Origin: Erysipelotrichaceae bacterium
Lineage (GTDB): Bacteria; Bacillota_I; Bacilli_A; Erysipelotrichales; Erysipelotrichaceae
Direction of reading: 5' to 3'
Length of the DNA: 64,000 bases
NCBI GenBank assembly: GCA_015058955.1
Contig: SVBJ01000008.1
Coordinates: forward strand, 1 to 64,000
Shown: positions 987 to 32,162 of the stretch, piece after piece
Numbering within the stretch: position 1 is the stretch's first letter
How the letters are laid out: the number at the start of each line of letters is the position of its first letter
Program-made: the position numbers and the translations under genes
Notes under the pieces: model-generated
Told to the model about the DNA's origin: nothing
What the model saw: only the letters and a program-made list of their open reading frames with translations
Databases searched by the model: none

Positions 987-987
987 A

Positions 988-1980
988 TTACTTCAGCGTT
1001 GCATACATGACTGCCTTGATCGTATGCATGCGGTTTTCAGCCTCATCAAATACCTTTGACTGAGCTGATTCAAATACTTCATCACTGACTTCCATTTCAG
1101 GCAGACCGAATTCCTCATAGATCTGTCTGCCGGTCGTAGTGTTAAGGTCATGGAATGAAGGCAGACAATGCAGGAAGATGCAGTCAGGATCAGCTTTCTT
1201 CATGACATCCTTGTTTACCTGATATGGAGCCAGCAGCTTGATTCTTTCCGCCCATAATTCCTTAGGTTCGCCCATTGATACCCAGATGTCGGTATAGATG
1301 ACATTGGCACCTTTGGCAGCCTTGTCGACATCATCAGTCAGAGTGATGGTGCAGTGATTTTCCTTAGCGATCTTCTTGCAGGTCTTTACCAGATCGTCAG
1401 CCGGCATGTTTTCCTTCGGCCCGCAGGCAACAAAGTTAATGCCCAATTTGGCACAGACTACCATCAGTGAGTTGGCCACATTGTTTCTGGCATCTCCGAA
1501 GAAGACCCACTTCAGTCCCTTATAGTACCCGAAATACTCATAGGCTGTCATTACGTCAGCCAACATCTGAGTCGGATGGAACTGGGTAGTCAGTCCGTTC
1601 CAGACCGGAACGCCTGAATATCTGGCCAGATCCTCAACGATCTGCTGATCAAAGCCGCGGTATTCAATGCCATCAAACATTCTGCCCAATACTCTGGCAG
1701 TATCGGCCAGGGATTCCTTATGGCCCATCTGTGATGAACCCGGATCCAGGTAGGTTACTCCCATGCCCAGATCGTGTCCGGCTACTTCAAAGGCACATCT
1801 GGTTCTGGTTGAGGTCTTTTCAAATAAAAGAACGATGTTCTTTCCATCAAGATATTTATGCGGGGTATTGGACAGTTTCAGATTCTTGAACTGTCTGGCA
1901 AGGTCCAGCAGATACTGGATCTCTTCCGTTGAAAAGTCTAACAGCTTTAAAAAGCTGCGTCCTGATAAGCTTCTTGGCAT
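988..1980 (-). CDS. arcB: Ornithine carbamoyltransferase, catabolic
   Basis: Splits citrulline with phosphate into ornithine and carbamoyl phosphate when running in the catabolic direction. The STRTR phosphate-binding motif lies near residue 55 and the HCLP ornithine-loop motif near residue 270; the 330-residue length is normal. The ATG at 1980 is chosen because GAAGGAG sits at the right distance before it. An in-frame start 27 bases upstream would overlap the arcA stop and has no ribosome site. Position between arcA and arcC supports the catabolic form. Sequence alone does not separate arcB from argF; the operon does. Confidence 0.95.
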
Positions 1981-1996
1981 TTTCTTTTCTCCTTCT

Positions 1997-3436: not shown

Positions 3437-6400
3437 TTACTTCTGATACAGTTCAATTGGTGAACTGCTGCTTAACCCATACAGTTTCCTGACCGTATCA
3501 TCGTCAATTCTGGCAGTACCGCCCAATACGACACCGTCAGTAATTCCCTGACTCTGCAGGTATTCTCTGGCTATGGAGGCTTTATCAGATCTGGTCAGGA
3601 TGACCGGAGCCTTCAGCATCTGAGCCAGCGGTCCGCCGCATAAGCCATCCGGGAAGTCATTGCTGAAAGCCAGTACTGCACACTTCGGTGCTTCAAACAG
3701 CTTCTCAGCGATCCTTACTGATGTTTCAAATCTGTTGGCACCGGCAATTCTTTCAACTGAGCCATATGTCTTCAGCTGGTTTTCAATGTCGCTGCTGACG
3801 GCTTTTTCACCGCCCAGGATGATGAATTTCCTGCCCCTGATATCTTTCAGGTATGACTTCTGAACATCGTCCAGAGCGTCCTTAACCAGCAGCAGAGGCA
3901 ATCCGGTGGCGGATGCAGAGAGTGAATCCGCAAAATCCTTACCCGTAGCTACCAGTATGACTTCAGAAGTCAGGTCAGAATCCTTCAAGATTTCCAGGTT
4001 GGTTCCGTATCTGTTATCGCCAGCCAGTCTGACAACGTTCTTAACGCTCTTTCTGACTTCCTTTTCAATTTCAGATGAGATGGCTGAAGTACCGCCCAGA
4101 ATGTAAACCTTACCGTCCGGATTCATTACAGTTTTCAGATATGCTTCAATTTCAGCAGCACTCTTATCATCGATCAGCATGATCGGACATTCATTGACTG
4201 CCGCCAGATAAGAACCTGATAAGGCATCGGCGAATTTTCCGCCGCAGGCCAGGACGATGGCATCAAGTTTTTCTTCCGCCTTGGCTTCCATGATGAAGTC
4301 AGTGATTGATTCAGCGGTCTTATATCTGTTGTCACCGGCAACTCTGACGATTCCTTCAATTACCGGTTCTTCAGAAGCCGTTACGGAATACTGGCCATGG
4401 CAGATTGCACAGGTGTAGGTCGTCGTATTGCCGACTGTCACACCTTCATCATACTGACACTTTTCAGTTTCCTTATGCGTTGGATCATTGCCACAGACAC
4501 GCGTATGTGTACCGACCTGTGCACCATCATAAATCCATTCACCATAGTCATGGCCCAGAGCATTTATCTCTCTGGTTTCCTTTTCATGACATCTTGAGCA
4601 TTCTCTTTCTTCCAGGCCCTTTTCCGTACAGGTTGCTGCCTTGGTGACAGTCCAGCTGTTCCAGTGGTGCCCAAGTGCTGCAATGACGAAGTGTTCGGAT
4701 GAAATGACTTCATTGCATACCGTGCATCTGACAACCTCATCATATGAGCCTGCAGACGTACAGGTAGCTGCGACTTCGTTTTCCCTGTGCTTTTCATCGG
4801 CTTTATGTCCGGTTGGTTCAACTCTGACGGTTTCTCTGCTCAGCTGTTCACCGCATTCACTGCAGTATATGACGATGTCATAAGAACCTTCCTTTATACA
4901 GGTTGGCTCTACCTTGTTTTCGATGACCTTGTCACCTTCCTTATGACCTGTAGTCGGAATGTTATCCAACTTTTTCTGCTGAGACATAAACATCTTGTTG
5001 GTAAAGGCGGCCGTATAGGTCGTTTCACCCATTTCGGTACAGGTTGGCTTTCTGGTCACTTCACTGCTGGTCTTAACGGTTTCGGTAATCTGATGAGCAT
5101 TATCGTTAAGACAGTGCACACTGGCAGTTGCCTGACTGTTGTCTTCAGACCAGCTGTATGTTATTTCACCCCAGTTATGACCAATGGCAGATAAAGTAAC
5201 CATCTTGGTTTCACTGTGCTGTTTGCCGTCATAGCTTTCTGTAGCACTGATGAATACTGTATATGTGACGGATCCATCTTCTGTACAGGTTGACGCAACA
5301 GTCACTTCCGTGCTGTTTACGGTAATGAATCTGGTTTTTCCTGACTCTTTATCGGTATAAACCGCATCAGCCTTTGAATAATCATCAGACCATCTGAATT
5401 CAGTGAACTCAAAATCATACCCCAGAGCCGGAAGAGTTATTTCCTTCTCATCCTGATATGTCTTGCCATCAGGACCGGTAACACTTACAGTGTAGGTTCT
5501 CTTGCCGTCAGTCTGATGTGTAGGAGAAGTCTCCTCAATTACAGCCTCAGCTGATCTGATGCTTTCCTGATGTGAGGCATCATTCCGGCAGGTAAATGTC
5601 GCTGTTGCATGCATGAAATCATTGTCCCAGCTCCAGACAGGTTCTCCCCAGCTGTGGCCGGTAGCCTTAATGATCAGCTCAGTGGTCATTACCGGCTGAC
5701 TGCAGACTTCATCAAGGAAAGATGTTCCGCATCTTGAACATGTATAGTGTGCCATCATGCCGTCCTGTGTACAGGTAGCAGGTATCTCGGCATGATAGCT
5801 GACATCGTGTCCCAGCATAGGTAAAGTGACATCCTTATGTTCCTGATGGCTCTGCTTATCCGGGCTGTTTTCCGCACTTATTTCAGCAGTATATCTGTCC
5901 AGACCGTTTACATCGCACAGCGGATCCTTCTGTCTTTCCACGGTTACCTTTGCATTGGCAGTTGTCTTATGCCGTGAATCATTAAAACAGGTGTATTCAG
6001 CCACGGCACTTTCATTGCCGGTCCAATTGAAGCTGGTAAAGTTCCACTTATGTCCTGTTGGATTAATATTGGCCACAACGCTGTTCTGATTTTCAAAAGC
6101 AGGATTTGTGAATACTGCGGTATATGTTGTCTCACCTGCTGTTTCACAGGTTGCCTGTTTTGTTACCCGGGATGTCGTACTGACGGTTTCAGTTTCAATG
6201 TGCCCAGGATCATTTGCACAGATCCTGCTGGCTGTGACCTTAGTGTTGTCAGCCGACCATTCATATGTAACTGTTTCCCAGTCATGTCCAGTTCCCTTAA
6301 CCGTAACCGTTGATGATTCATTCAGGGCAAGCTGAGTGTTTCTCTGAGAAGTAACGACGGTTACCTGACCGTCATCACAAGGTACCTCAAATCTGACGGT

Positions 6401-9400
6401 GGCAATTGCCGTATTGGCCTTGATTGAATTTCTGGCACCGTAGACGATCTTAATGGTTCCGGTTTCTTCATTGATATTGAATGATACGATTTCTGCCGCA
6501 CTTCCAACAGTAACTGTTGGATTGCTGAGGACTTCCGTATCGTAAGTTATTTCAAAAATGCCGTTTTCAGATGCACTGTCTTCTGACAGAGTTATGACAG
6601 CTGTACCTGATTCGGTAACGGAAACTCCATTAACCTTTTTAATAACCAGGTTGGCAGGTATTCTGTAAGCTTCGGTAGAACCGGTTACTTCATTTACCGC
6701 TTCTTCTGTTTCCGCAACTTCTTCCATTTCAGCAACATCACTGACGGAAACCGTGATGGCTCTTTCCATCTTTTCTGCTTCAGCATGGAAGCGGCTGAGC
6801 ACTTCATCCGTCATCATTTCTTCTCTGGTCATCTGTTTTGTCAGATTGAGTTCCAGCGGTTCCTCTATATCCATCGGTTCATCACCTGCAGAAGCCGGAG
6901 CTGCTGATCCCCTGACAAACAGTCCTGCTACCGGCCAGACATCTTTACCGAAGTCGCCGGCATGATACAGGGCACCCGTACCCGGATTAATGATGATCAA
7001 TTCTGTCTGTGAACCGTCACAGTGTGTCCAGTAAATGTATGTTCCGTCATAGTAAAGTGACTGATACAGAAAACTCGTGGAGATTCCGGTATCAATTACC
7101 TGTGTCGGAGTACTGAATGTCAGACCTGTTCTGGATGAATAGGTCAGATTTGTCTGCCAGATCTTTCCTGATTCATCAAGGTAATAGTAGGTTCCTGAAG
7201 TTGTACTTATCGTCTTGGCTGCAACACCGCAGATATAGGCGTCACCGCTGGTTTCAGAGATATCCAGCAATCCATATGGGAATCCTGAATATGTTCCCAG
7301 TTCATCATCAGTTTCCGGGCTCAGGTTTCCTATTACAAGGTAATTGGCAAAACCGTAGACATAATAATTATTGAAACTGCTGCTGGAAGGACCGCGGGTC
7401 GCATCAACTGCAACCACATAGTTTGTTCCCAGTTCAGTTAAGGCATAACTGGAGGAATTGACAGAATAAAGAATCGTTTCAGCACTGCCTGCATCAAGAG
7501 TTCCGGCATACAGCGCTGATGCTGTATTCTGGAAGGCTGAGTGCAAGTCCTTTTCCCGGCTTGAATCATGCAGTTTATTCCATGTCGGAAGACTGCTGGT
7601 ATTGAAGCCTGAGAAATAAACCTTTCCCTCTTCATCCCAGACAATACCGTTGAGGTTCTTATTGACAACGGTGACCCTGACACTACAGCTGGCCGTTACC
7701 GCATTATTAGAATTGGAGGTGGCAGTGATCGTAGCATTTCCTGAACCTACCGCCACAACATGTCCGTTCCGGTTAACAGTGGCAACAGAATTATTGCTGC
7801 TGCTCCAGCTGACCGTACGGTCTTCAGCAGTTAACGGAAGTACCCTGGCAACAAGATCAGTCTCATTGCCTTTATACAGGTCAAGTGATTCCGGTGTCAT
7901 CTTAATGGAAGTGACATTATATGGATCTACTTCCATCCTGATAACGGTTTTCTTATACAGATAAACACTGGCTGCCGAAGTACCCAGAGTGAAGGAGCTT
8001 CCTGAGTAGCCGAGATATCTCGAGTTATTTGTCAGCTGATGTGATGAGCTGTTCCAGCTCCATTGTGCTCTGCCTGTTGATGTGGCAAAGGTCAGCCGGT
8101 TGCTTGTGCTGCGTGCGGCATAATAGTTTCCGTTCTTGAAATACCAGCCTTCTGAGACTGTAAATATGGATGTAGCAGCAGCATCGGTACTGTCGATGTA
8201 TGGACTGCCAACTGTGCTGTTTGCAGCCCTGACAGTTACACTGCTGGTATTTGGAGTTGTATTTGTATGTCCCAGAGCAACACCGTTTCCTACTGTATTT
8301 CTGTTTACGATCAGATAATCCTCTTCAGCAGTAAGCGTATCTGTCAGAACATATACAGTTCTTTCTTCATAGTTGTTATCATTGACTTTTACGGCCTTAG
8401 CTGTTTCATTACCGGCATAGTCACCCGCAAATACAGCAACATATCCATGGGCATTGGCAATCGCTTCAGATGCATCAAAGGTAATTGAGTATTCGGAAGT
8501 TCCCGGTGCCTTTTCAGCATACTTTACTTCACCATCAAGTGACAGTACGGCAACATAAGCCAGTTTATAGTTATCTGAAGCAGTAACAGTCAGATTGCTG
8601 CCGCTTAAGACAGCCTTGGTTATGATTGGATCGGTATTGTCGATCAGGAAATCATAGCCAACGAAAGCACCCCTGCCCAGTTCATTCTTCATCAGCAGAG
8701 TTTCAAATCTGGCTGATGACAGTATGCCGGCATTGGCTGACGAGTAGTCATTGTTGACTTTCATGGCGTTGTATTCCGGAACAGCATAGAAGCCAATGCG
8801 GAACATTTCGCCTTCCTTCAATCCCTTATCAGACGGCTTGAAGTTTGACTGAATGAATTTGATACCGGTGTTCTGCCATGAACCCTGAGATTCATAATAC
8901 CAGATGCCTTCGACTTCATTGCCGATGACTCTGTTTTCCACGACATCGGTAACTTCACCGTCATAATCACTGATTTTTGAAACCGCAAAGCCGGTAGTTC
9001 CAGCGGAACGGATCAGGTTGTAAACGATCTTATTAATGGTTGAATAGCTGTTAATGGCCAGTTTGTCAGATGGGAAAGCGTCTTCAACCATGTAAGGGTT
9101 GCCTGTAAACTTGGTGTTGACACCGTTATATGTCAGTTCAATGTAATTTGTATTTGTATTGCCGGTATATGGGATCTTTTCTGTTCCATATACAGTATCC
9201 ACATATGAAGTATTGTCAAACATTGACGGATCAGTCCAGTTGCCGTAGAAACCTAATAATGGAATGGTATGTGTATGCTGATAGCTCTTTCCTTCACTGT
9301 CGGAAGTGATGCATTCAACTTTGGTAAAGCCTTCAATGTATGCTCCTGAAGGATAGTTATTGAGCTTACTGTCAGAAACACTTATTTCAACGGTGACCAT

Positions 9401-12076
9401 TCTGCTGCCGTGAGCAGGTACGGTATTTGCCGGTACACTTCCTCCTTCCGGCTGCCAGTTAAGAAGCAGATGGATGTCTCTGGAACTGATGGTGTCATCC
9501 TCATCCATGTCACCGGCTGACAGATCAAGAGAACTGCCATCAATGTTTCCGGCCAGGTGTTCTGCCAAAGCCCTGGCATCCTGCTGATCAGTCTGACCAT
9601 CTTTATTTACGTCGTGCTGAGGTCCGCTGACTTCCCCCATCTGCTGCCAGATGTAGTTTACGGAAGAATTAAGCGGTGTAGTTGTATAATCCATGAACCA
9701 TTCACCTTCATCAGAATATCTGTCCTGAGTGAAGATGTCCGTGCTCAGTCTGTATTCCAGATCAGTATTGCTCAGGTTATAGATGGTAAATGAATATGAA
9801 TAACTGCCTGTCTTTGCAGGATCATCGCCGAATTCGACCTTTACCTTGCCGTCAGCGGCAGAACCTGTTCTGGCGGTAAGAGTATCATCGTTTTCATTGA
9901 TCATGATGACCGAAGAGGCAGTAACAGCCTTTGAGACTTCAGCCAAACCTGAACCCTGCTGAAGAACTGATACGTAATTACCGTTATTCTTCATCGGTGT
10001 AGCCGTAGACATCAGAAGACTCTGAGTTACGGCACGCGTTGAATATTTTTCATTAAGTGCTTCATTTGAATCAGCTATCTTATTCTCTCTGAGATACTGG
10101 GCAACAACTGCTGCCAGACCGGTTACATGCGGAGCAGCCATGGAAGTACCGCTCATCAGTTCATACTGATCTGAACCTCCGGTTGTACTACCGCTGGTGG
10201 TCTTATTGGTTCCGAAAATGGAATAGATATCTCCGCCAGGTGCCGTAATCTCCGGTTTCATGATCAGAGAACCGGGAACACCCCAGGAGCTGAAATCCGT
10301 CATTTCAGCATCTTCTCTGGCAGTGATCTGTCCGTTAACAACGCTGCTGGTTACGGTTATGGTTCCGGTATAGTATGTATAATTTCCAGTCGTTTTCTTA
10401 GTTGAATTGTTCTTGATGTTTTCAGCGTCAGCCAGAGTAATTGAAACTACCGGGAATGAACCGGTAAAATCATCTAAGTCCATGCTGATGGCACCAGGCT
10501 GGTTATTGGCAATTATCAGTGCTTTCGGTTTGTAGCTGATGGAATTATTGGCCTTGTCAACGAAGGTATTACTGCCGCGGTTAACGATAACGATCTTGTC
10601 ATTCAGAGAGACAGCACTGTTAACGGCACTGTAATCATCAGCTTCACCCAGAGCATCAATGTATACAAATGAATATGAACCGGTAATTGAAGTCATGGCA
10701 GTCTTGCCGGTATCAGTGTAGTAAATGTCCTTACCGTTGAATTTCAGAGGAGCTCCAGTTGCTCCAATATTCTGAGCTGCCGCAACACCCAGACTGTTAA
10801 TGTATGTTCCAGGTGAACCGCCTGTATGCAGGCTGACATCGTCAATGTACAGATCTGTTTCCAGATACTGGGTCAGTGCATAGGAGTTGCCGGCTGAAAT
10901 GACAACAACCATTTTGTTATTGGCATTAGTTGACAGTTTATTAAGCATTTCCTGATAGGTATTGCCAAAGGTAAATCCAGGTGATCCGCCTCCAAGCGAC
11001 AGGTTGGCACTGTCACATCCCAGGGTAATGGCATCTTCAAGGGCTGCAAAGTAATCAGAATCATATGCTCCTCCTGCTGCGCCGAATACCTTCATTACCA
11101 ATATCTGAGCATCAGGAGCCATGCCTACCGCGTGAACTGTTGAAGCAGCGTCAACATAACTGTTTCCCTGCTTGATGAATCTGTTGGCGGCGGCAATGCC
11201 GGCAACATGTGAGCCATGTTCGCCTTCGGTATCATCAAGATGTGTTATTTTCTGATTTTTATCAACATAGTTATATGCATAAGGAATTTTTGCAGATATG
11301 TACCGGCCCTGTCCATTCAGATCCAGGTTACTGTAATCAGCCGCAGTCATCAGAGTTGGCTTGTTTTCCAGCTGATTAATGGCATAGTTAAAAGCATCTG
11401 CATTAACAGACTGATGTGTAGTGTCAAGTCCCGTATCAATTATGGCTATTCTGCTGCCCGCACCGGTATAACCGGCAGCCCAGGCTGCGGTTGCTCCTAC
11501 CATGCCGGTTGAAGTATTGGCAGTCAATGGATCAGATACGCTGTCATCCATCGCTTCATAACGGTTCTCCAGGAAAACTCTCTTAACACCGCTGATCATT
11601 CTGATCTTGTTGATGTCCCCGTATCTGACATTAGCGGAGATGATGTTGGCAGCCAGAGTAAGATTCCATTTGACATCCAGCGGTCTGTTCAGCTTCCGTT
11701 CAATGGTCTTTGTCATTGCCGCCTGCTGTTCAATAAGAGAATCACGGTAAGAAACCGCACTACGGTTCTTGGCAATGTTCTCCGTTGAATATCCGGCATC
11801 TATCGTTGAAGGCTTATCCAGTACAATGGAAACACGTACCACGTCATCCCGGTTGAAATCAAATGTTATTTCCTCTTCAGGTTCTTCCTGCTGTTCAACT
11901 TCTCCAAGTTTATGAATGTGGAGTGTTGATGGATCAAGTTCTTCCAGTTCCAGCTCAACCGGTTCCCCGTTTCCGTTATCCGGCAGGTCAGAAGTATCTG
12001 CGTATACCGGCAGAATATGTGAAACAGATATAGCCAGTGCCAATATCATTGTTATAAATTTTATGGTTTTTTTCAT
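3437..12076 (-). CDS. Giant cell-wall-bound subtilase with dockerin- and cohesin-like modules and CWB2 anchor
   Basis: Predicted secreted serine endopeptidase of family S8 (C5a peptidase/lactocepin-like layout), 2879 residues. Order: signal peptide (1-30); propeptide-like region (75-175); catalytic domain with Asp in AIIDTGLD (about 212), His in EHGSHVAG (about 287) and Ser in SGTSMAAP (about 645), with an inserted PA domain (about 470-560); Fn3-like region; dockerin-like module with two calcium loops, DVNKDGQTDQQD and DMDEDDTISSRD (about 825-880); Big_2 (about 1380-1470); a propeller-like stretch; cohesin-like beta-sandwich (about 1810-1930); ten GHxW modules with CxNDxxH or CxxC pairs (about 1930-2560); three CWB2 repeats marked RVAGDNRY, RLAGDNRY and RIAGANRF (2575-2879). 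The ATG at 12076 has AAGGGTGA before it; an upstream in-frame start has none. Substrate unknown. Confidence 0.93.
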   Translation of the reverse strand: MKKTIKFITMILALAISVSHILPVYADTSDLPDNGNGEPVELELEELDPSTLHIHKLGEVEQQEEPEEEITFDFNRDDVVRVSIVLDKPSTIDAGYSTENIAKNRSAVSYRDSLIEQQAAMTKTIERKLNRPLDVKWNLTLAANIISANVRYGDINKIRMISGVKRVFLENRYEAMDDSVSDPLTANTSTGMVGATAAWAAGYTGAGSRIAIIDTGLDTTHQSVNADAFNYAINQLENKPTLMTAADYSNLDLNGQGRYISAKIPYAYNYVDKNQKITHLDDTEGEHGSHVAGIAAANRFIKQGNSYVDAASTVHAVGMAPDAQILVMKVFGAAGGAYDSDYFAALEDAITLGCDSANLSLGGGSPGFTFGNTYQEMLNKLSTNANNKMVVVISAGNSYALTQYLETDLYIDDVSLHTGGSPGTYINSLGVAAAQNIGATGAPLKFNGKDIYYTDTGKTAMTSITGSYSFVYIDALGEADDYSAVNSAVSLNDKIVIVNRGSNTFVDKANNSISYKPKALIIANNQPGAISMDLDDFTGSFPVVSITLADAENIKNNSTKKTTGNYTYYTGTITVTSSVVNGQITAREDAEMTDFSSWGVPGSLIMKPEITAPGGDIYSIFGTNKTTSGSTTGGSDQYELMSGTSMAAPHVTGLAAVVAQYLRENKIADSNEALNEKYSTRAVTQSLLMSTATPMKNNGNYVSVLQQGSGLAEVSKAVTASSVIMINENDDTLTARTGSAADGKVKVEFGDDPAKTGSYSYSFTIYNLSNTDLEYRLSTDIFTQDRYSDEGEWFMDYTTTPLNSSVNYIWQQMGEVSGPQHDVNKDGQTDQQDARALAEHLAGNIDGSSLDLSAGDMDEDDTISSRDIHLLLNWQPEGGSVPANTVPAHGSRMVTVEISVSDSKLNNYPSGAYIEGFTKVECITSDSEGKSYQHTHTIPLLGFYGNWTDPSMFDNTSYVDTVYGTEKIPYTGNTNTNYIELTYNGVNTKFTGNPYMVEDAFPSDKLAINSYSTINKIVYNLIRSAGTTGFAVSKISDYDGEVTDVVENRVIGNEVEGIWYYESQGSWQNTGIKFIQSNFKPSDKGLKEGEMFRIGFYAVPEYNAMKVNNDYSSANAGILSSARFETLLMKNELGRGAFVGYDFLIDNTDPIITKAVLSGSNLTVTASDNYKLAYVAVLSLDGEVKYAEKAPGTSEYSITFDASEAIANAHGYVAVFAGDYAGNETAKAVKVNDNNYEERTVYVLTDTLTAEEDYLIVNRNTVGNGVALGHTNTTPNTSSVTVRAANSTVGSPYIDSTDAAATSIFTVSEGWYFKNGNYYAARSTSNRLTFATSTGRAQWSWNSSSHQLTNNSRYLGYSGSSFTLGTSAASVYLYKKTVIRMEVDPYNVTSIKMTPESLDLYKGNETDLVARVLPLTAEDRTVSWSSSNNSVATVNRNGHVVAVGSGNATITATSNSNNAVTASCSVRVTVVNKNLNGIVWDEEGKVYFSGFNTSSLPTWNKLHDSSREKDLHSAFQNTASALYAGTLDAGSAETILYSVNSSSYALTELGTNYVVAVDATRGPSSSSFNNYYVYGFANYLVIGNLSPETDDELGTYSGFPYGLLDISETSGDAYICGVAAKTISTTSGTYYYLDESGKIWQTNLTYSSRTGLTFSTPTQVIDTGISTSFLYQSLYYDGTYIYWTHCDGSQTELIIINPGTGALYHAGDFGKDVWPVAGLFVRGSAAPASAGDEPMDIEEPLELNLTKQMTREEMMTDEVLSRFHAEAEKMERAITVSVSDVAEMEEVAETEEAVNEVTGSTEAYRIPANLVIKKVNGVSVTESGTAVITLSEDSASENGIFEITYDTEVLSNPTVTVGSAAEIVSFNINEETGTIKIVYGARNSIKANTAIATVRFEVPCDDGQVTVVTSQRNTQLALNESSTVTVKGTGHDWETVTYEWSADNTKVTASRICANDPGHIETETVSTTSRVTKQATCETAGETTYTAVFTNPAFENQNSVVANINPTGHKWNFTSFNWTGNESAVAEYTCFNDSRHKTTANAKVTVERQKDPLCDVNGLDRYTAEISAENSPDKQSHQEHKDVTLPMLGHDVSYHAEIPATCTQDGMMAHYTCSRCGTSFLDEVCSQPVMTTELIIKATGHSWGEPVWSWDNDFMHATATFTCRNDASHQESIRSAEAVIEETSPTHQTDGKRTYTVSVTGPDGKTYQDEKEITLPALGYDFEFTEFRWSDDYSKADAVYTDKESGKTRFITVNSTEVTVASTCTEDGSVTYTVFISATESYDGKQHSETKMVTLSAIGHNWGEITYSWSEDNSQATASVHCLNDNAHQITETVKTSSEVTRKPTCTEMGETTYTAAFTNKMFMSQQKKLDNIPTTGHKEGDKVIENKVEPTCIKEGSYDIVIYCSECGEQLSRETVRVEPTGHKADEKHRENEVAATCTSAGSYDEVVRCTVCNEVISSEHFVIAALGHHWNSWTVTKAATCTEKGLEERECSRCHEKETREINALGHDYGEWIYDGAQVGTHTRVCGNDPTHKETEKCQYDEGVTVGNTTTYTCAICHGQYSVTASEEPVIEGIVRVAGDNRYKTAESITDFIMEAKAEEKLDAIVLACGGKFADALSGSYLAAVNECPIMLIDDKSAAEIEAYLKTVMNPDGKVYILGGTSAISSEIEKEVRKSVKNVVRLAGDNRYGTNLEILKDSDLTSEVILVATGKDFADSLSASATGLPLLLVKDALDDVQKSYLKDIRGRKFIILGGEKAVSSDIENQLKTYGSVERIAGANRFETSVRIAEKLFEAPKCAVLAFSNDFPDGLCGGPLAQMLKAPVILTRSDKASIAREYLQSQGITDGVVLGGTARIDDDTVRKLYGLSSSSPIELYQK

Positions 12077-12111
12077 AAAATCACCCTTAATTAAAAACAT
12101 AAACTGTTTTA

Positions 12112-12241: not shown

Positions 12242-12291
12242 TTAGTTACAAAGACAGACGATAATTGACTTGCTCTGAGAGGAGAACGACC

Positions 12292-13437
12292 ATGAACCTG
12301 CTGATACACGACCTATCACCTCAACAGTTCAGTAAGATAAGCAAGGATTATGAAGATTGGACAGTAATATCTGATAACGGAAAAATCCAGCCATGTCTGG
12401 GCTGTTTTTGTTGCTGGCATAAAACACCTGGTGAATGCATCCGCAAGGACGGCTATGAAAACATGGGTGCACTGGTCCATTATGCCCAGAAAGTCACCAT
12501 CATCAGCAGATATACCTATGGTGGGGTTTCCGGCTTCGTAAAAAACGTCTTAGATCGCTGTCTGGGTTACGTCCTGCCGCAGTTTGAAATAGTCAACGGT
12601 GAATCACATCATCAAAAAAGATATGACGATGACAAGCCTTTCACCTTCATCTTCTACGGCAACAACATAACTGAACAGGAAAAAGCTGAGGCAATCCGTT
12701 ATGCAAATGCAGTATGTGCAAATTTCAGATGTCATGTCAGACAAGTAGTTTTCCAGAAAACAGCTGAGCCGGAGAGGATTCCGGAAATAACGCCTGTTGA
12801 GGAATCCGGCAGAACCGTTTTCATTAACGGATCTCTGCGATATGAAAAAGGCAACTCTGCTGCCTTTGCATCAATACTGGCTGGAATGTTGAAAACAGAG
12901 CCTGAAATCATTGCGCTGCGGAAGCATCTTAACGATCTTTCCGGGCTGACAGCTTCTCTCAGGAACGCATCGACAATCGTCTTCTGTCTCCCGTTATACG
13001 TAGACGGCCTGCCTTCTCAGATAATAAGACTGCTGGAAACCTTCCAGAAAGAATACAGCGGGCCATCCAAGAGAATATATGTTCTGGCCAACATGGGATT
13101 ATATGAAAGCCAGCAGCTGGTCAACCTGTTTACGGCAGTCAGACAGTGGAGCAGTAAAATGGGATTTGATTACTGTGGCGGATTAGGCATCAGCGCCGGT
13201 GAAATGATAGGTCTGCTGGTACAGCAGCTTCCACAGGGTTTCTGGCCAACAAATAAGATATACAAGGGAATTAAAACTCTGGCTGACGCCATCAACAGAA
13301 ACGCCGGAATCGAAGACGTTTATGCTGAACCATTCCTTTTCCCTCGTTCCCTGTATCTGGGAATTGCCAACAGAAATTGGAATAACCTGGCCAGAAAAAA
13401 CGGCATAAAGCCGAAAGATCTATACAGAAAGCTCTGA
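12292..13437 (+). CDS. Tandem flavodoxin-like NAD(P)H-dependent oxidoreductase
   Basis: Cytoplasmic flavoprotein-like product of 381 residues that appears to contain two flavodoxin-fold (FMN reductase-like) halves. The N-terminal half has a cysteine-rich PCLGCFCCWHKTPGECIRKD segment near residues 35-55, as in the PF03358-type reductases, followed by TYGGVSGFVKNVLDR. The second half begins near residue 178 with VFINGSLRYEKGNS, a typical first strand and phosphate loop, and continues with LPLYVDGLPSQ. The ATG at 12292 follows GAGAGGAG; an upstream in-frame start lacks one. It is a single-gene unit divergent from the subtilase. Substrate unknown. Confidence 0.72.
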   Translation: MNLLIHDLSPQQFSKISKDYEDWTVISDNGKIQPCLGCFCCWHKTPGECIRKDGYENMGALVHYAQKVTIISRYTYGGVSGFVKNVLDRCLGYVLPQFEIVNGESHHQKRYDDDKPFTFIFYGNNITEQEKAEAIRYANAVCANFRCHVRQVVFQKTAEPERIPEITPVEESGRTVFINGSLRYEKGNSAAFASILAGMLKTEPEIIALRKHLNDLSGLTASLRNASTIVFCLPLYVDGLPSQIIRLLETFQKEYSGPSKRIYVLANMGLYESQQLVNLFTAVRQWSSKMGFDYCGGLGISAGEMIGLLVQQLPQGFWPTNKIYKGIKTLADAINRNAGIEDVYAEPFLFPRSLYLGIANRNWNNLARKNGIKPKDLYRKL

Positions 13438-13443
13438 ACACAA

Positions 13444-13469
13444 AAAAGTTCCTGAATTCAGGAACTTTT
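13444..13469. terminator. Bidirectional terminator
   Basis: A perfect 26-base palindrome (AAAAGTTCCTGAA and its complement) lies between two convergent genes. A/T tracts on both sides let it serve both the oxidoreductase (+) and the lipoprotein (-). Confidence 0.85.
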
Positions 13470-13470: not shown

Positions 13471-14280
13471 TTATCTATCAGGCAATACAGTGCCACCGGA
13501 AGGTGTCATATCCTTCCGTTCATCAAGAATGGCACTTTCCACATAGTCCAGTTTCACAGCGTTGTCTGCCAGTATGGTTAATCTCTTGAAGCTGGCTGGT
13601 TCGATTTCAAAGACATAGATTCCGGCTGATTTTATCTGCGATCTGAGTTTACCACTGCAGAACCGTTCAAACCGAGTTACCTTGGAGTCGCTCTCACCAT
13701 CAGTAAACTTTACAACTATGCGTGAACTGCTGTACTTTTTACCTGTCTGAGGATCTGTTACCGTCTTTTCACTCTTAATCAGCATCCTGTCTTTTCCCAG
13801 ATCATTGGTCTTCTTGATTCTCTTTCTGACCTTGTCTGTCACTCTTTCATCTATTTTCACACTTGGTTCTCCGCCCATCACACAAACACCCTCTTCATCT
13901 ATTTTCACCAGCCTGCCATTATTTCTGATCAGCAGGTATTTTTCATCTGTTTCCAGAGTAGTTCTGACCATGTCTCTGGAAATGAGCTCTTCCAGTCCTT
14001 CAGTATGAATAATAAGGCATGCCAGCCTGTCATCCTCATAAACCGGATAGACATAGGAAACATAATCAAGAACCTTGCCTTCATCTGAGAGATTGTTTAT
14101 TTCAACCCCGGTTCCCATATAATAGAATCCTGTTCTTTCACCAAGAATGAGAGAGGCATACAAAACAACATCTGATGGGATTTCATCAGGGTCCATGTTC
14201 CTGTTCTCAATTACATCATCCGGCCTTGTACAGCCGCTTAAAAGCAGGCACAGAGCAATAAAGCACAATAATTTCTTCAT
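13471..14280 (-). CDS. Lipoprotein with C-terminal subtilase-prodomain-like segment
   Basis: A 269-residue predicted lipoprotein: positive start, hydrophobic stretch and LLSGC lipobox (Cys about 17), so anchored outside the membrane. The middle is not recognised. Residues about 185-262 (SSRIVVKFTDG ... GKLRSQIKSAGIYVFEIE ... LDYVESAILDE) resemble the fervidolysin/I9-type prodomain that folds and inhibits subtilases, but no catalytic domain follows. It lies between two giant subtilase genes, which suggests a trans-acting inhibitor or folding helper. A remnant of a protease that lost its catalytic part is the main alternative. The ATG at 14280 has no ribosome site; a -10 box ends seven bases before it, so the mRNA is probably leaderless. 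Longer in-frame starts fall in the promoter and are rejected. Confidence 0.75.
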   Translation of the reverse strand: MKKLLCFIALCLLLSGCTRPDDVIENRNMDPDEIPSDVVLYASLILGERTGFYYMGTGVEINNLSDEGKVLDYVSYVYPVYEDDRLACLIIHTEGLEELISRDMVRTTLETDEKYLLIRNNGRLVKIDEEGVCVMGGEPSVKIDERVTDKVRKRIKKTNDLGKDRMLIKSEKTVTDPQTGKKYSSSRIVVKFTDGESDSKVTRFERFCSGKLRSQIKSAGIYVFEIEPASFKRLTILADNAVKLDYVESAILDERKDMTPSGGTVLPDR

Positions 14281-14287: not shown

Positions 14288-14316
14288 ATTATCAAGTAAA
14301 AAGCCGAATTATTCAA
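14288..14316 (-). promoter_or_regulatory. Promoter of the prodomain-like lipoprotein, inside a terminator hairpin
   Basis: Minus-strand TTGAAT (14311-14316), a 17-base spacer and GATAAT (14288-14293). Only seven bases separate the -10 box from the ATG, so transcription should begin at or one base before it. The -35 box lies in the loop of the upstream terminator. Confidence 0.72.
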
Positions 14317-14331
14317 GTAATCCGGCTTTTT
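14298..14331 (-). terminator. Terminator of the sortase-anchored subtilase gene
   Basis: AAAAAGCCG and CGGCTTTTT arms, about 20 bases after the stop at 14352, with a T-run on the minus strand. The hairpin contains the -35 box of the next gene. Confidence 0.82.
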
Positions 14332-14351: not shown

Positions 14352-17300
14352 TTATTTCTGGAAATAACCTTTCTTCTTCATTGTGAAGAATACATATGCA
14401 AGAGCACTCATGCTTCCTAAGAATGCAATCGTCCATGCAGTGATGTTGAGTGCATCTCCTGTTTCAGGAGCAGGTTCTGGCAGAGCAGGAATTACTTCTT
14501 CATACTCAGTGCTGTATTCCTTTCCGTCAGGTCCGGTTACGGTAACCTTGTATACTCTCTTGCCTTCCTTGCCAACTTCTGCAGGAACTTCTTCGGTGAT
14601 CTCAGACTTTTCAGTTACTTCTTCAACATGATCTTCATCATGCTTGCAAGTGAACTTGGCAGTGGCTTCACTGTGGTCATCATTCCATGTCCATTCAGGT
14701 TCGCCCCATTCATGTCCGACACCTTCAGCCTCAGTTTCCTCAGTAGCGATGACAGCCTCTTCACCGACTTCGTCATTGCTTTCAAGAGTTTCAATCTTGA
14801 CAGTTGCGTCATCGCATCCCTTCTTGAAGATGATGGTTGCGATAGTATCGCCTTCTTCAACACCTTCGAGATCAGCGAATGCAATCTTGATCATTCCTTC
14901 TTCAAGGTCATTTACTGAAGTGTATTCAAGTTCAGTCCTGGTCTCAACATACTCGAGTTTCTCTGGATCATAAGTGATTCTGTATAATCCGTTGTGTGAA
15001 AGATCCTTGGCTGTCAGAACAACTTCAAATGTATCAGCATTTTCTTCTTCTGCTGGTTCATCAGCAACCGGTTCGTCAGTTGCAGGTTCGCCTTCTTCTC
15101 TGTTGATTCTTACAGGGTTGCTTGTGAAGCCCTTAACGGCATTTGCCGTACCGGTTACTTCATTAGCAGCTTCTTCAGATTCTTCAACAGCAGCTGCAGG
15201 TTCAACTAACTGAACAAACTGTGCGTGGAACTTGGTTTCAAGCTTGTCTGTTCCGATAATTTCTTTTACCTTACCAGAACCTGTTTCAGGTGCGATATCT
15301 TCATATACCAATGCATCATATCCATCATTGAACAGAGATGACAGGTTGGTTGCACCATCTACGACACCGATGAACTGAGCATCAGCTTCACCATTGAAAT
15401 ATACTGACATGATATCAACATAGTAGATACCCTTTGAAGTATTATCACCAATGAATAATCCCCAGTCGTCGAAGTCCGGATTACCTTCTTCGTCAAAGAT
15501 ATGACCTGTGCTGCATGTCATTGTATAAGCAGTCAGATCATCACTGATCGTGATTCCATTTACCTTACCTAACAGCATTGAACCGCCGTCAACATCGATA
15601 CCGCTGTCTACTTCAATACCATATACATAGTAGAGATACAGTGATCCGTCAGCAGTCAACAATGCATAGTCAAACTCTGGGTCAGTTGGATCTTCCAGAT
15701 CATAGCCAATCAGTGCCATGGCAACGATGTCTTCGATATCAGTATCCAGATACCATAAGTTACCTGTATTAGTGTAGAATACCAGCTTGTTTGCAGCTGA
15801 TACACCGGCCGCAACATATGCATAGTCAAGTTCGCTGCCAGCTTCACTTACTCCTACCCAGTGAGGGATCATGGCACCGTCGATCATGACATACTGCTTA
15901 TCAACAGTTACTTCAAATTCACTGTCAATGGCAAATTCTTCAGCATCATATCTGTGGATGGTGTTACTCTTGTTGATTCCATATACATAGTTGCCTGAAC
16001 GGCCGCCATTGTATACTTCTTCAGCTTCGGCATATGGATATACGCTCATGTCAGTAAGGTCGATAGCACCATAATATACGCCATCGCCATCAGCAACCTG
16101 AGCATTGATGTAACCGTTGACAGGGCTTGCCTCAACAACGTTTACAACTGCCTGTGCAGCCATTTCAGGTGTCTGATTTGAAGTAGCAGTAATGGTTACC
16201 TGACCTACAGATACTGCTGTTACTAAGCCGTTTTCATCAACTGTAGCGATTGAAGGGTCAGATGATTCCCACTTGACACTCTTGTCTTCAACAGTGACAG
16301 GCTTGATAGTAACGTTGAACTGTCTTTCTTCATCAACACCCATGATCAGGGTAGTCTTGGTTGGATCAATTGTGATTTCGCCGACTTCTTCAGGATCTAT
16401 CGCTTCTACAAGCTCAGTCTTCTCATAAAGATAAACCGGCCCTGGTTCAGTTTGAGTGAAAAGGAAGTAAGTGTTGAAATATAACGCTCCAAACGGAACT
16501 GCTTCTCCTGTTTCCTCATCTATTGTCATATCAAACAGGATGTTATTAGAGTAGGTAAATCCGTCTGCATATGAAACATCACCCCAGTTTAGTAAAGGAT
16601 AGTCTAAACGATTTGCAACCAGAATTCCTCCATCACTCTTACTCTGGAAACCAACACCATATGGATTTTCAAAAGTATACCAGATAAATGTATCATCAGT
16701 ATCTTCTGCCAAAATATATGGAGCATTTTCGCCATCATCAGTAATTACAGTTTCTTCAACAAGCGTGTAATACTGAATACCCTGTGAATATAAAGCATTT
16801 GTCTTACCAGCTTTATTTGTGCTGGCAATAATATATTCACTGTCAGGATTTAATGTGTCTGTCAGCATGTAAACTGTCTGTTTAGTGATAACATCACCTT
16901 CCTGGAAACGGACAAGCTTTACCTGTTCATTTCTTGCATAGTCACCGACAAATAATGCTGCAGCATTTGGAAGATTCTTAATTCCGCTGACATCCAATGT
17001 AACGGTTACTTCCTGACCAGGAGCTGTCTGTTCAGGTACTTCACCGACTATTACGATTTCACCCTGAACATCCATCAGGCCGATGAATGCAATGTATTTG
17101 TCATCCTTGGCAGTTACTGTAACAGTTGTCTTGTCTTCAGAAACTTCGAACTTGCTGATTTCAGGAGCAGTGTTATCAATTGTAAACTGATAGCCTAAAG
17201 CTGCACCATCACCAACTTCACCGTTTTCAATGAATTCAAGTAACTGGTCTTCAGTAAGCTTGTTGCCCTTGCCTTCGTTGGCAATGACACCAAAGTATTC

Positions 17301-20300
17301 AGGAACTGTATATACATCAATTGAGAACTTGTCGCCCTCATCATATCCGAGTTCCTCAGCTGTGATGCCTACAGGAACCACATTGGCACCGGTGTAGACC
17401 CAGCCTGGTGTAGAAGACTGAGAGTTATAGTATGCACCAACGGTCGGAGTTGCATCAAAACCGAACTTGTCGATGATATTACCGTCTGCGTCTCTGATCA
17501 CAACGATCTGAGCTACAAAGTTTCTGTATGTTGTATAACGTGCATTCTTGATGACAGTTTTGCTGTTGATGGCAAATCTTTCTTCATCAATTTCAGGTTC
17601 AGCAATGTAAGGGTTGCCAGAGAACCATGCATTTCTGCCGTCAGCATATTTCAGCTGATAGCCGTTTGTATTTTCAGCACCCCAGTAAGATTCCTTTTCA
17701 CTTGAACCCATAGCCTGTTCAACATATGATACTGCATCATACATTGAAGGATCAGTCCAGCTGCCATAGTAACCTAATACAGGGATTGAATGCTGTACGT
17801 CGTCTTCGCTCTTAACGAATGTAAATCCTTCAACATAACCGCCGTTTTCACGTTCTTCAAGGATGGATCCTGAAACATTGATCGTTACGGTTACTGTAGC
17901 TGTCTGACCGGCTGCCAGATAGATGAAGTCTTCACCGATACCGTGTTCTTCTTCTAACCATGCCAGTAACAGATAAGCGTCTCTGGATGTAATTTCTTCA
18001 TCTTCGTCCATCATACCGGCTTCCAGATCACATTCTTCTTCTGCTCTTAATCCTGTGATATAGTCCAGAATTGCCTGAGCATCATCAGAATCAGTATCGC
18101 CGTCCTTGTCGAAGTCATGACCTTCAGCTCCGCCTACGATGTTATAGGTAACTTCACCTTCAACAGGTGCAGTCCAAGGAGCCAGGAATTCTTCATAGAT
18201 GTCCTGAGTAAACAGATCTGTGCTGAATTCATACTTGATTGTGTTTTCAGAGAAATTGGTGAGTTCAAATGTGTATTCAAATTCGCCGGTTCTTTCAGGA
18301 TCATGTCCTAATTCAGCCTTTACCTTGTAGTCAGCTGCTGCACCGGTGATGGCTGTCAGGTCATCGCCTTCTTCACTCATGTGAATGAATGACTTGGCGG
18401 TAACTGCTCTTTCAACATTGACCAGACCTGAACCCTGCTGTAATACAGGATAGTAGCAGTCTTCCTCATCCTTCAGAGGTTCTGAAGTTGACATCAGCAC
18501 GCTTAAAGCATACTGCCTTAAAGTTAAGCCGGTCTTGCCTTCAATGTCATTCTCTCTGTAATACTGGCCGATTGCGGCGATGATACCGGAAATCTGAGGA
18601 GCAGCCATTGATGTACCTGACATCAGTTCATACTCTTCGTGTCCGCCTAAGATATCATCACTGTCTTCAGCCATGTGTAAGCCATTTGCAGAGTAGATGT
18701 CTCCTCCTGGAGAAGTGATTTCCGGCTTCAGGACCAGAGAACCAGGAACACCCCAGCTGGAGAATTCACTCATTTTGTAATTAGGGCTATTGTATCCCTG
18801 ATGTTCAATTGAAGCACTGATGCCGATCTTACCTACATAGTATGTATATTCTTTTTTAGCTACGTCATCAATTTCACCTTCATCATCATAGATCAGTTCA
18901 TAACCGGTAAATGTGCCGCTGGAAGTAGCATTATCCTTGAAGAAATGACCGTCATCCAGCTGTACCAAAACGGCTGGTGCTGTAGCCAGATAGCCAGTAA
19001 GGTTCATGCCCATGTTTCCAGGCTGATTATTAACGATGATCGTAGCGATACCGCCGGCAATTACTGAACCGTTGGCTTTGGCAAAGAATGAGCTTGAACC
19101 ACGGTTACATACGCCGATCTTTCCTTCAAATCCAACTTCCTCAGGAAGTAATGCAAAGAGGTTGAGCGGTGTCCGTGCTGTATAATATCTATAATCTGCA
19201 TCTGCAGCATCACCATAAACATCACTAGGGTTGCAGATCATGCCCGGACCATCGATGTATACATATTCATATTCACCGGCAATTGAGCTGATTGGTGCGT
19301 TGCCATATGTAGCTGATTCGTTGAATGTGATCTTGTCTCCGCCAACATCAAGCAGCTGCCCGGTATAACCGTCGTTATCAACTGAGGCAACGGAGAAAGT
19401 GTTGATGTAGGTTCCAGGAGAACCGCCTGCACTGTAGTTGATGTCATCAGAATACAGAGTAGCCTGCTGGTCCCAGGATGAGTTGTTACCGGCTGAGAAG
19501 ACAACTACCATTGCCTTTTCGGTCAGAGAATCCAGAATTTCCTGATATGCATTTGGTGCATAGATGAAACCAGGATCAGCTGAACCGAGTGACAGATTAG
19601 CTGAATCTGCACCTAAGACGATGGCATCTTCAATTGCTGAGAAGTAATCTGAATCATAAGCGCCGCCGCCGACACCGAAGACCTTCATGACTAAGATCTG
19701 TGCATCCGGTGCCTGACCTACGGTAAACTTTGCTTCAGCAGCGTCAACGAATTCACCGTCAACCTTGACATATCTGTTGGCAGCTGCAATACCTGCTACG
19801 TGAGAGCCATGTTCGCTCTTATGGTCATGAATGTGTGAAACGTCAGTATTCTTATCAACATAGTTATAAGCATAAGGAACTTTTTCATTGACATAGATAC
19901 CAGGAACGTTCAGTGAATCCCGCAGTGCTGCCAGATCATCTTCTGTCATTAAGCTGTCAGCGAAACCGCCTTCTTCAGCAGAATGTGCCAGAGCGTCACC
20001 GGCAAAGGAAATGTGTTCAAGGTCAAGACCTGAGTCAATGATGGCTACCTTGCTTCCGGCACCGGTATACAGTGAGGAATTCTCGCCATTTGATTCAGTC
20101 ATGTCTCTTGAACTGATCATGTTAGGATCAGCACTGCTGCCGCCGGAAGTCTGTGACATTTCATATCTGTTTTCAATGAATACGTCCTTCACACCGTCCA
20201 GCAGTTTGATCTGATTGATCTTACCGTAAGGAACTTCTGCGGAAATGATGTTGGCTGCCAGCGTAAGATTCCACTTTACATTGAGCTGCTTTCCGCCAAG

Positions 20301-20672
20301 AACCTTTGAAGAAATCTGAGCAGCGATCTTGTCCTGCTGTTTCTTCAGGGAGTTACGGTAGGAAATAGCCTGTCTGTTAGTTCCAATGCCCTTTACGTCA
20401 TATCCTGCATCAATGGCAGAATTGCCTTCAAGAACAATAGAAACACGGACAGTCTGGTTTTGAGAGTATGGAAGTACAACATCAATGTCTTCCTCCTCAT
20501 CGAGTTCTCCCAAAATCGGTGCACTGAGCCCAGGCTGCTTTTCAACCTCAGTTACAGGTCCGAATTCAGAAGGTTTTTCATCTTCGGCAAAGACAGTGGT
20601 CACATGCAGATGTGAAACCATCAGAGTCAAAGCCAGAAGAATCGTGAACCATTTCTTAAAACTCTTCTTCAT
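14352..20672 (-). CDS. Giant sortase-anchored subtilase with dockerin- and cohesin-like modules
   Basis: Predicted surface serine endopeptidase of family S8, 2106 residues, a paralogue of the protease at 3437-12076. Order: signal peptide (1-30); propeptide-like region; catalytic Asp in AIIDSGLD (about 212), His in EHGSHVAG (about 288) and Ser in SGTSMAAP (about 688), with a PA insert (about 515-600); Fn3-like region; dockerin-like loops DFDKDGDTDSDD and MMDEDEEITSRD (about 850-910), the second missing its first acidic ligand; Big_2 (about 1430-1515); propeller-like stretch; cohesin-like domain (about 1875-1960); one GHxW module (about 1985-2065); PETGD, a membrane helix and KKK tail, a sortase signal. 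The ATG at 20672 follows AAAGGAG. The protein is strongly acidic. Anchoring differs from its paralogue: covalent here, CWB2 there. Confidence 0.93.
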   Translation of the reverse strand: MKKSFKKWFTILLALTLMVSHLHVTTVFAEDEKPSEFGPVTEVEKQPGLSAPILGELDEEEDIDVVLPYSQNQTVRVSIVLEGNSAIDAGYDVKGIGTNRQAISYRNSLKKQQDKIAAQISSKVLGGKQLNVKWNLTLAANIISAEVPYGKINQIKLLDGVKDVFIENRYEMSQTSGGSSADPNMISSRDMTESNGENSSLYTGAGSKVAIIDSGLDLEHISFAGDALAHSAEEGGFADSLMTEDDLAALRDSLNVPGIYVNEKVPYAYNYVDKNTDVSHIHDHKSEHGSHVAGIAAANRYVKVDGEFVDAAEAKFTVGQAPDAQILVMKVFGVGGGAYDSDYFSAIEDAIVLGADSANLSLGSADPGFIYAPNAYQEILDSLTEKAMVVVFSAGNNSSWDQQATLYSDDINYSAGGSPGTYINTFSVASVDNDGYTGQLLDVGGDKITFNESATYGNAPISSIAGEYEYVYIDGPGMICNPSDVYGDAADADYRYYTARTPLNLFALLPEEVGFEGKIGVCNRGSSSFFAKANGSVIAGGIATIIVNNQPGNMGMNLTGYLATAPAVLVQLDDGHFFKDNATSSGTFTGYELIYDDEGEIDDVAKKEYTYYVGKIGISASIEHQGYNSPNYKMSEFSSWGVPGSLVLKPEITSPGGDIYSANGLHMAEDSDDILGGHEEYELMSGTSMAAPQISGIIAAIGQYYRENDIEGKTGLTLRQYALSVLMSTSEPLKDEEDCYYPVLQQGSGLVNVERAVTAKSFIHMSEEGDDLTAITGAAADYKVKAELGHDPERTGEFEYTFELTNFSENTIKYEFSTDLFTQDIYEEFLAPWTAPVEGEVTYNIVGGAEGHDFDKDGDTDSDDAQAILDYITGLRAEEECDLEAGMMDEDEEITSRDAYLLLAWLEEEHGIGEDFIYLAAGQTATVTVTINVSGSILEERENGGYVEGFTFVKSEDDVQHSIPVLGYYGSWTDPSMYDAVSYVEQAMGSSEKESYWGAENTNGYQLKYADGRNAWFSGNPYIAEPEIDEERFAINSKTVIKNARYTTYRNFVAQIVVIRDADGNIIDKFGFDATPTVGAYYNSQSSTPGWVYTGANVVPVGITAEELGYDEGDKFSIDVYTVPEYFGVIANEGKGNKLTEDQLLEFIENGEVGDGAALGYQFTIDNTAPEISKFEVSEDKTTVTVTAKDDKYIAFIGLMDVQGEIVIVGEVPEQTAPGQEVTVTLDVSGIKNLPNAAALFVGDYARNEQVKLVRFQEGDVITKQTVYMLTDTLNPDSEYIIASTNKAGKTNALYSQGIQYYTLVEETVITDDGENAPYILAEDTDDTFIWYTFENPYGVGFQSKSDGGILVANRLDYPLLNWGDVSYADGFTYSNNILFDMTIDEETGEAVPFGALYFNTYFLFTQTEPGPVYLYEKTELVEAIDPEEVGEITIDPTKTTLIMGVDEERQFNVTIKPVTVEDKSVKWESSDPSIATVDENGLVTAVSVGQVTITATSNQTPEMAAQAVVNVVEASPVNGYINAQVADGDGVYYGAIDLTDMSVYPYAEAEEVYNGGRSGNYVYGINKSNTIHRYDAEEFAIDSEFEVTVDKQYVMIDGAMIPHWVGVSEAGSELDYAYVAAGVSAANKLVFYTNTGNLWYLDTDIEDIVAMALIGYDLEDPTDPEFDYALLTADGSLYLYYVYGIEVDSGIDVDGGSMLLGKVNGITISDDLTAYTMTCSTGHIFDEEGNPDFDDWGLFIGDNTSKGIYYVDIMSVYFNGEADAQFIGVVDGATNLSSLFNDGYDALVYEDIAPETGSGKVKEIIGTDKLETKFHAQFVQLVEPAAAVEESEEAANEVTGTANAVKGFTSNPVRINREEGEPATDEPVADEPAEEENADTFEVVLTAKDLSHNGLYRITYDPEKLEYVETRTELEYTSVNDLEEGMIKIAFADLEGVEEGDTIATIIFKKGCDDATVKIETLESNDEVGEEAVIATEETEAEGVGHEWGEPEWTWNDDHSEATAKFTCKHDEDHVEEVTEKSEITEEVPAEVGKEGKRVYKVTVTGPDGKEYSTEYEEVIPALPEPAPETGDALNITAWTIAFLGSMSALAYVFFTMKKKGYFQK

Positions 20673-20762
20673 AAAACTCCTTTCCATTCCCTTTCCACGC
20701 AATAAATCTTAATCGATTAATCGCACAAAAAAGTAAAAAAGATTTTTCCACCTATGGTTCTT

Positions 20763-24466: not shown

Positions 24467-24543
24467 GTCCCCGTAGCTCACCAGGATAGAGCGACTCCCT
24501 CCTAAGGAGTAGGTAACAGGTTCGAGTCCTGCCGGGGACGCCA
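24467..24543 (+). tRNA. tRNA-Arg (anticodon CCU)
   Basis: Cloverleaf is readable: acceptor GTCCCCG pairs with CGGGGAC; D-arm GCTC/GAGC; anticodon stem ACTCC/GGAGT with loop CTCCTAA, anticodon CCU reading AGG; T-loop TTCGAGT. CCA is encoded. A T-run follows at once. The first T-stem pair is A-C. Confidence 0.95.
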
Positions 24544-32135: not shown

Positions 32136-32162
32136 AAAAAAACACCTCCTGTGGGGGTTACA

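Follow-up and report, generated by a model that had tools for sequence, protein, structure and literature searches.

Gene organization at the locus

The window is the whole stretch of DNA that was analysed, with a length of 64,000 nucleotides, from a gut bacterium. It contains a lipoprotein gene on the minus strand, which lies between the genes for two giant S8 (subtilase) proteases on the same strand. The features of the locus are as follows.

13471..14280, minus strand: candidate orphan-prodomain lipoprotein gene, an ATG frame of 269 aa plus stop
14230..14280, minus strand: lipoprotein signal peptide ending in the lipobox Cys17 (LLSGC); a hydrophobic leader followed by Cys is present in 17/17 complete copies of the family
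13786..14208, minus strand: N-terminal domain, residues 25-165, with a predicted fold nearest to the prostaphopain B proregion
13510..13740, minus strand: C-terminal domain, residues 181-257, with a predicted S8-type prodomain fold
13474..13521, minus strand: C-terminal tail after the acidic residue D253 (acidic in 17/18 alignment rows), variable in sequence
14352..20702, minus strand: giant S8 protease directly 5' of the lipoprotein gene, 2116 residues, with S8, PA and Big_2 domains (PF00082, E 2.5e-38)
20148-20462, minus strand: own prodomain of this protease
3437..12100, minus strand: second giant S8 protease, 2887 residues, with S8, PA, dockerin-like, Big_2 and CWB2 domains (PF00082, E 2.7e-39)
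11537-11851, minus strand: own prodomain of the second protease
12265-13437, plus strand: FMN_red-type (FMN-reductase-type) gene (PF03358, E 7e-7)
14298..14331, minus strand: stem-loop of 14 pairs in the gap between protease and lipoprotein genes
14288..14316, minus strand: weak promoter-like site, TTGAAT-17-GATAAT, just 5' of the ATG (9/12 matches)
13444..13469, minus strand: terminator-like stem-loop after the lipoprotein gene

The first-pass annotation had placed the lipoprotein gene at 13471-14280 and between two subtilase genes, and both statements are correct. The protein has a clear lipoprotein leader, MKKLLCFIALCLLLSGC, with a typical lipobox. On the 3' side, the FMN_red-type gene on the plus strand comes first and the second S8 protease follows. 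The C-terminal end of the lipoprotein reads SSSRIVVKFTDG...AGIYVFEIE...LDYVESAILDERKD, and then the frame stops. The protein ends ahead of any catalytic domain, as had been claimed.

A strong stem-loop is observed in 9/9 gaps between S8 and lipoprotein genes, a raw count without shuffled controls. Promoter-like sites amounted to 3 against 2.2 expected. The stem-loop and the weak promoter-like site together suggest, at the level of sequence, that the lipoprotein may be expressed separately from the protease or at a lower level.

In both proteases the catalytic region is followed by a dockerin-like stretch (PF00404, with E 7e-6 for the protease at 3437-12100 and 0.09 in the one at 14352-20702), and the protease of a related locus, L033, has it too (E 7e-5). 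One of the two proteases ends with CWB2 repeats, and the other with a PETGD-like sorting end, a motif recognized by eye. The protease cluster is flanked by genes of the arginine deiminase pathway (ADI, OTC and amino acid kinase) and arginyl-tRNA synthetase, at 51-3250 and 21034-22698. The window also contains a tRNA-Arg at 24467-24543 and a TPP riboswitch at 32152-32238 on the minus strand.

The C-terminal domain

The C-terminus had been read earlier as a fervidolysin-type prodomain, and profile comparison and structure prediction both support this reading. The Pfam scan places a PF22148 (Fervidolysin_NPro-like) match on residues 172-234, with E 0.028; its 15.2 bits fall short of the curated threshold of 21. 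The same gene reaches 17.8 bits in the six-frame search of its own genome, still under the 21-bit cut-off, and no other PF22148 match at E<=1 was found anywhere in that genome. Six of the 18 family members are matched at E<=1, the best at E 0.0068. Among 295 genomes of the phylum, PF22148 matches are under E 1e-4 in 2 genomes.

The profile of the C-terminal domain was compared with three S8 prodomains of PF22148 type, from true S8 proteases in two genomes of the same order. It aligned end to end, over 77 of 82 columns, with a score of 23.3, against a mean of 10.0, a standard deviation of 1.9 and a maximum of 16.0 in 100 column-shuffled controls. Sequence searches of solved structures with the lipoprotein and with the whole-family and per-domain profiles returned nothing relevant, and the NCBIfam scans returned only lipoprotein-leader-type and chance matches.

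The AF2 model of the lipoprotein, built from 11 sequences, has pLDDT values mostly of 92-97 in the C-terminal domain. The predicted order of elements, E182-192, H197-208, E211-216, E221-225, H231-242 and E247-254, is the strand-helix-strand-strand-helix-strand order of the prodomain. The top three structural matches are the prodomains of PC1/3, an S8 protease (Z 8.9, 8.5 and 8.4), followed among others by fervidolysin (Z 7.2) and the subtilisin BPN' prosegment (Z 7.1). ACT domains and ribosomal S6 also reach Z ~7; ferredoxin-like folds are common. Since a Z below 8 may reflect merely a common arrangement, weight was put on sequence, fold and genetics jointly. The model indicates that the C-terminus of the lipoprotein is an S8-type prodomain fold.

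The frequency of this fold among unrelated proteins at Z ~7 leaves room for another reading, in which the protein is a binding or sensing lipoprotein, with a C-terminal domain that derives from a prodomain, or is simply ferredoxin-like, and no longer meets any protease. The variable tail would suit this reading, as would the four relatives located away from S8 genes, which are described below. The three best structural matches are nevertheless all S8 prodomains, the sequence profile matches such prodomains above the null, and the genes are linked to and co-occur with S8. We consider a binding or sensing role rather unlikely.

Relation to the prodomains of the neighbouring proteases

The own prodomain of the giant proteases is strongly conserved, in 9/9 aligned sequences, with the motif VRVSIVL...WNLTLAANIIS...E.RYE. 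When the C-terminal domain of the lipoprotein was compared with this prodomain, the profile score was 14.2, not above the null, whose maximum was 17.8. Weak alignments (best E 0.42) fall on the last strand and the tail, where each has an acidic residue. The origin of the C-terminal domain as a copy of the neighbour's prodomain is thus unsupported. The first-pass annotation had stated that the neighbouring proteases carry a different propeptide type and that the lipoprotein is not a simple copy; both statements agree with this score.

Distribution of the family and its C-terminal end

A copy of the lipoprotein under E 1e-15 is present in 16/315 genomes of the order, the window's own genome included. 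The whole-protein profile matches 214/315 genomes at E<=0.01, but nearly all of these matches cover the leader end only, so that only matches under E 1e-15 were counted. One weaker candidate, G100:C109, is lost through this cut-off; it matches at E 9.6e-12 over positions 1-149 of 271. An alignment-based search of contigs, which is known to miss relatives, found 8 loci via one peptide pattern; a contig scan with the single protein and a tblastn search against plasmids found no relatives of the lipoprotein.

The family consists of 17 complete copies of 253-286 residues, that of the window included, and one partial copy in the alignment. The complete copies come from Erysipelotrichaceae-type genomes, and most of the counterparts with a name are gut assemblies of Erysipelotrichaceae, with goat, sheep and roe deer among the hosts. 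The partial copy (L032), which has only the N-terminal domain and lies at a contig end, counts as one of the 17 readable loci and not as a complete copy. One locus (L101) was excluded as a duplicate of L035 in another assembly, and two at contig edges (L039 and L110), where the upstream side is unreadable, were excluded from the locus counts. The C-terminal domain is better conserved than the N-terminal domain, with a median identity to the window sequence of 0.35 versus 0.22.

A protein that consists of a prodomain without a protease could result from a truncated subtilase gene or an assembly artefact, and nothing except this architecture speaks for it. All 17 complete copies share the same C-terminal end point, and the lipoprotein gene has its own terminator-like stem-loop. 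Among 21 C-domain matches in 314 genomes, none continues into an S8 catalytic domain; homologues that did so were what the first-pass annotation had named as a sign of truncation. Three weak C-domain matches (E 0.0015 to 0.0098) were inspected by eye and are not S8. Because the complete relatives end alike and no fused C-terminal domain exists among these genomes, the gene is not considered truncated; we regard truncation as highly improbable. As judged from the sequences, the prodomain is an orphan by design.

The N-terminal domain

The N-terminal domain alone is most similar in predicted structure to the proregion of prostaphopain B (1x9y), with a Foldseek E of 1.1e-3 and a probability of 1.00. 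The matched part of the 1x9y chain is residues 46-211, which we take to be the proregion. The VIA comparison gave Z 7.4, which is below 8, over 133 residues with ~10% identity, and the next match listed was at 5.1. Within the whole model, the same domain matched prostaphopain B at Z 7.0 over 136 residues. Further matches include several of monellin and cystatin type at Z ~4. The N-terminal domain has no convincing match to a Pfam propeptide or another sequence family. The earlier account of the lipoprotein thus stands for the C-terminal prodomain, and the likeness of the N-terminal domain to prostaphopain B was absent from it. On the basis of the models, the protein may consist of two propeptide-like domains on a lipid anchor; a match to protease propeptides in both halves of a single lipoprotein is notable.

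This similarity, which extends over the whole length of the N-terminal domain, raises the idea of a double-headed guard, with the N-terminal domain acting on papain-like enzymes and the C-terminal domain on subtilases. In two carrier genomes there are genes for giant proteins that match C1 papain strongly, and one of these genes is directly 3' of an S8 gene. One relative of the lipoprotein gene lies directly 3' of the gene for a transglutaminase-like surface protein. The window's own genome, however, has no C1, C47 or transglutaminase-core match, which reduces the double-headed inhibitor to a bare possibility, and the N-terminal domain stays at Z below 8. We judge this activity improbable for the lipoprotein. 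The broader proposal is a new class of bacterial envelope protein, in which a lipid anchor carries two domains like zymogen propeptides, one of staphopain-proregion type and one of subtilase-prodomain type, that would guard the membrane against the papain-fold and subtilase surface enzymes of the same clusters; it is likewise doubtful.

A giant papain-domain protein is encoded at L118 (7226-13501, G182:C58). It is a surface protein with C1 papain, Lectin_like and DUF285 domains and, at the end, a PnrA-like (Bmp) substrate-binding domain. It is directly 3' of an S8 gene and may be an odd fusion or an assembly join.

Gene neighbourhood and co-occurrence with S8 proteases

The question of whether the gene stays beside S8 genes in relatives had been raised in the first-pass annotation, and at many loci it does. 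The gene directly 5' of the lipoprotein gene encodes an S8 protease of a single subfamily, in some cases seen only as a cut C-terminal end, at 9/17 readable loci, or at 9/16 without the partial L032. These nine are the window, L033, L034, L035, L038, L040, L104, the second copy of L105, and L108. In one genome (G023) the lipoprotein gene stands between two S8 genes and the FMN-reductase gene is absent. At three further loci, another giant surface protein is encoded directly 5'. The 5' neighbour has Flg_new repeats at the first copy of L105 and at L109, where it is cut by the contig end. At L107 it is the transglutaminase-like surface protein, and two genes of the S8 subfamily lie farther 5'.

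No S8 gene is present in the stretch around L031, L036, L037 and L041, which come from four genomes of the same genus, or in that around the partial copy L032. The first four form a separate branch beside sugar-kinase-like and glucanotransferase-like genes (names assigned by eye). In this S8-distant branch, near the sugar-metabolism genes, the lipoprotein gene is 3' of a gene for a small membrane protein of ~200 aa.

The S8 subfamily was scored in 314 genomes of the order with the profile of the giant proteases' own prodomain. It is present at E<=1e-6 in 45/314 genomes, namely in 14/16 carriers of the lipoprotein versus 31/298 others (Fisher p 2e-11, which is not a true probability because the genomes are related and not independent). 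In G297, one of the two exceptions among the carriers, the contig breaks off within a gene next to that of the lipoprotein, and the C-terminus that can be read there is S8-like. The 31 genomes that have the S8 subfamily but lack the lipoprotein (21 of them at E<1e-20) indicate that the lipoprotein is an optional partner, not generally needed by these proteases.

In two genomes, G098 and G151 (L130 and L131), the S8-subfamily gene is split near its start, into 182 + 1889 aa and 250 + 1861 aa. Only the S8-distant lipoprotein branch was found in these genomes.

The gene linkage and the common compartment are also consistent with a folding helper. In that case, the tethered prodomain would template the folding of the giant proteases at their exit from the membrane, a job similar to that of PrtM but with a different fold. 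Propeptides of mesophilic bacterial subtilases are described as both chaperone and inhibitor (PMC10580911), and PrtM is reported to increase the activity of a lactococcal S8 envelope protease (PMC13374181). The giant proteases, however, have their own strongly conserved prodomain, and many genomes have the S8 subfamily without the lipoprotein. We consider a folding helper unlikely.

Last strand and tail of the prodomain

In SUB1-ProM and BPN', as described in PMC6993865, protease helices are capped by residues close to where the last strand ends. At one such place, an acidic residue (D/E) is present in 17/18 rows of the lipoprotein alignment; the place is one of two in BPN' and was assigned through an alignment by eye, not from a complex. 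Beyond the acidic residue, 18/18 rows have a tail of 7-23 residues, long enough to reach the active site.

The tail of the lipoprotein was compared with the adjacent protease's own tail for mimicry, and the result was negative, with 946/5040 permutations as good as the real pairing. All-against-all tail similarity is barely above that of shuffled tails (0.017). A mirror tree of 7 pairs gave a Pearson correlation of 0.79 and a Spearman correlation of 0.27, with 35/5040 permutations as high, and is driven by the close pair of the window and L033.

Proposed role

The lipoprotein probably serves the giant surface proteases as a separate brake or folding helper. An inhibitor that guards the membrane is more likely than a folding helper, and we infer that it acts on the giant proteases. 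In its full form, our proposal is a lipid-anchored, stand-alone regulator or inhibitor of propeptide type, directed against the cell's own envelope subtilases. The predicted fold, the lack of a catalytic domain, the lipobox, the conservation, and the linkage to and co-occurrence with the S8 subfamily are established here, and binding, inhibition, direction of effect and target are inferred; we put the proposal forward tentatively, as a reading that falls a little short of an even chance. Several points speak against it: the adjacent proteases have another prodomain type, the tail varies and does not resemble that of the neighbour, the mirror-tree signal depends on one close pair, four relatives are distant from S8 genes, the S8 subfamily often occurs without the lipoprotein, ferredoxin-like folds are common, and the PF22148 score is below its cut-off.

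In this mechanism, the signal peptide and Cys17 would tether the lipoprotein at the outer face of the membrane, and the N-terminal domain and the linker would hold up the folded S8-type prodomain. The prodomain would bind the catalytic domains of the giant S8 proteases in trans, with the face of its sheet on the protease helices and its tail toward the active site. Inhibition would take place during the passage of the proteases out of the membrane or ahead of their arrival at the wall, and lipoproteins and the secretion machinery would thereby be protected.

If the lipoprotein does inhibit or fold the giant proteases in trans, stand-alone subtilase propeptides would occur in bacteria too, and they would sit at the membrane, the site of greatest danger from a freshly exported protease. 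This would show how a cell that makes several giant envelope subtilases spares its own lipoproteins, and it would provide tethered inhibitors of natural origin against giant S8 envelope proteases. Each domain of the lipoprotein can be expressed and tested on its own.

Comparison with known systems

Stand-alone subtilase propeptides are described from fungi, plants and apicomplexans (PMC6993865). The stand-alone inhibitors of MEROPS family I9 (from Pleurotus ostreatus, yeast and Arabidopsis), TgMIC5 and Plasmodium SUB1-ProM are likewise prodomain folds without a protease. The SUB1-ProM gene, like the lipoprotein gene, is reported to adjoin subtilisin genes (PMC6993865). Unlike the I9 examples, the lipoprotein is bacterial and lipid-anchored, has an extra domain of ~140 residues in front, is nearest to fervidolysin-type prodomains, and is a candidate inhibitor. 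Such propeptides are known in eukaryotes, and the lipoprotein is a bacterial, lipid-anchored, two-domain form. A search of the open-licence literature yielded no description of an orphan subtilase prodomain on a bacterial lipoprotein, which is weak evidence.

In SpeB-Spi, staphopain-staphostatin and Bacteroides Bfp-Bfi, the gene for a secreted protease has an inhibitor gene beside it, and the inhibitor is propeptide-like or of another kind; the arrangement here is similar. Predicted lipoprotein signals are reported for some of the Bfi inhibitors (PMC2873492). The proteases in these pairs are cysteine proteases, whereas the neighbours of the lipoprotein are S8. An inhibitor of the SpeB-Spi type resembles the propeptide of its neighbour and is adjacent to the protease gene. 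The lipoprotein shows the adjacency (9/17 readable loci) but not the resemblance (14.2 versus a null maximum of 17.8). The cysteine protease pairs are described as co-transcribed (PMC2873492), whereas a stem-loop stands between the genes here.

With PrtM/PrsA of lactic acid bacteria, as here, a giant S8 envelope protease has a lipoprotein linked to it (PMC13374181). PrtM is described as a peptidyl-prolyl isomerase, whereas the Pfam and NCBIfam scans found no PPIase family in the lipoprotein. The fervidolysin prodomain of PF22148 shares its topology and an end-to-end profile alignment with the C-terminal domain, but the lipoprotein scores below the cut-off of that family (15.2 versus 21 bits) and no catalytic domain follows. 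For the N-terminal domain, the prostaphopain B proregion is the best match in fold over the full domain, but with ~10% identity and no match at the sequence level.
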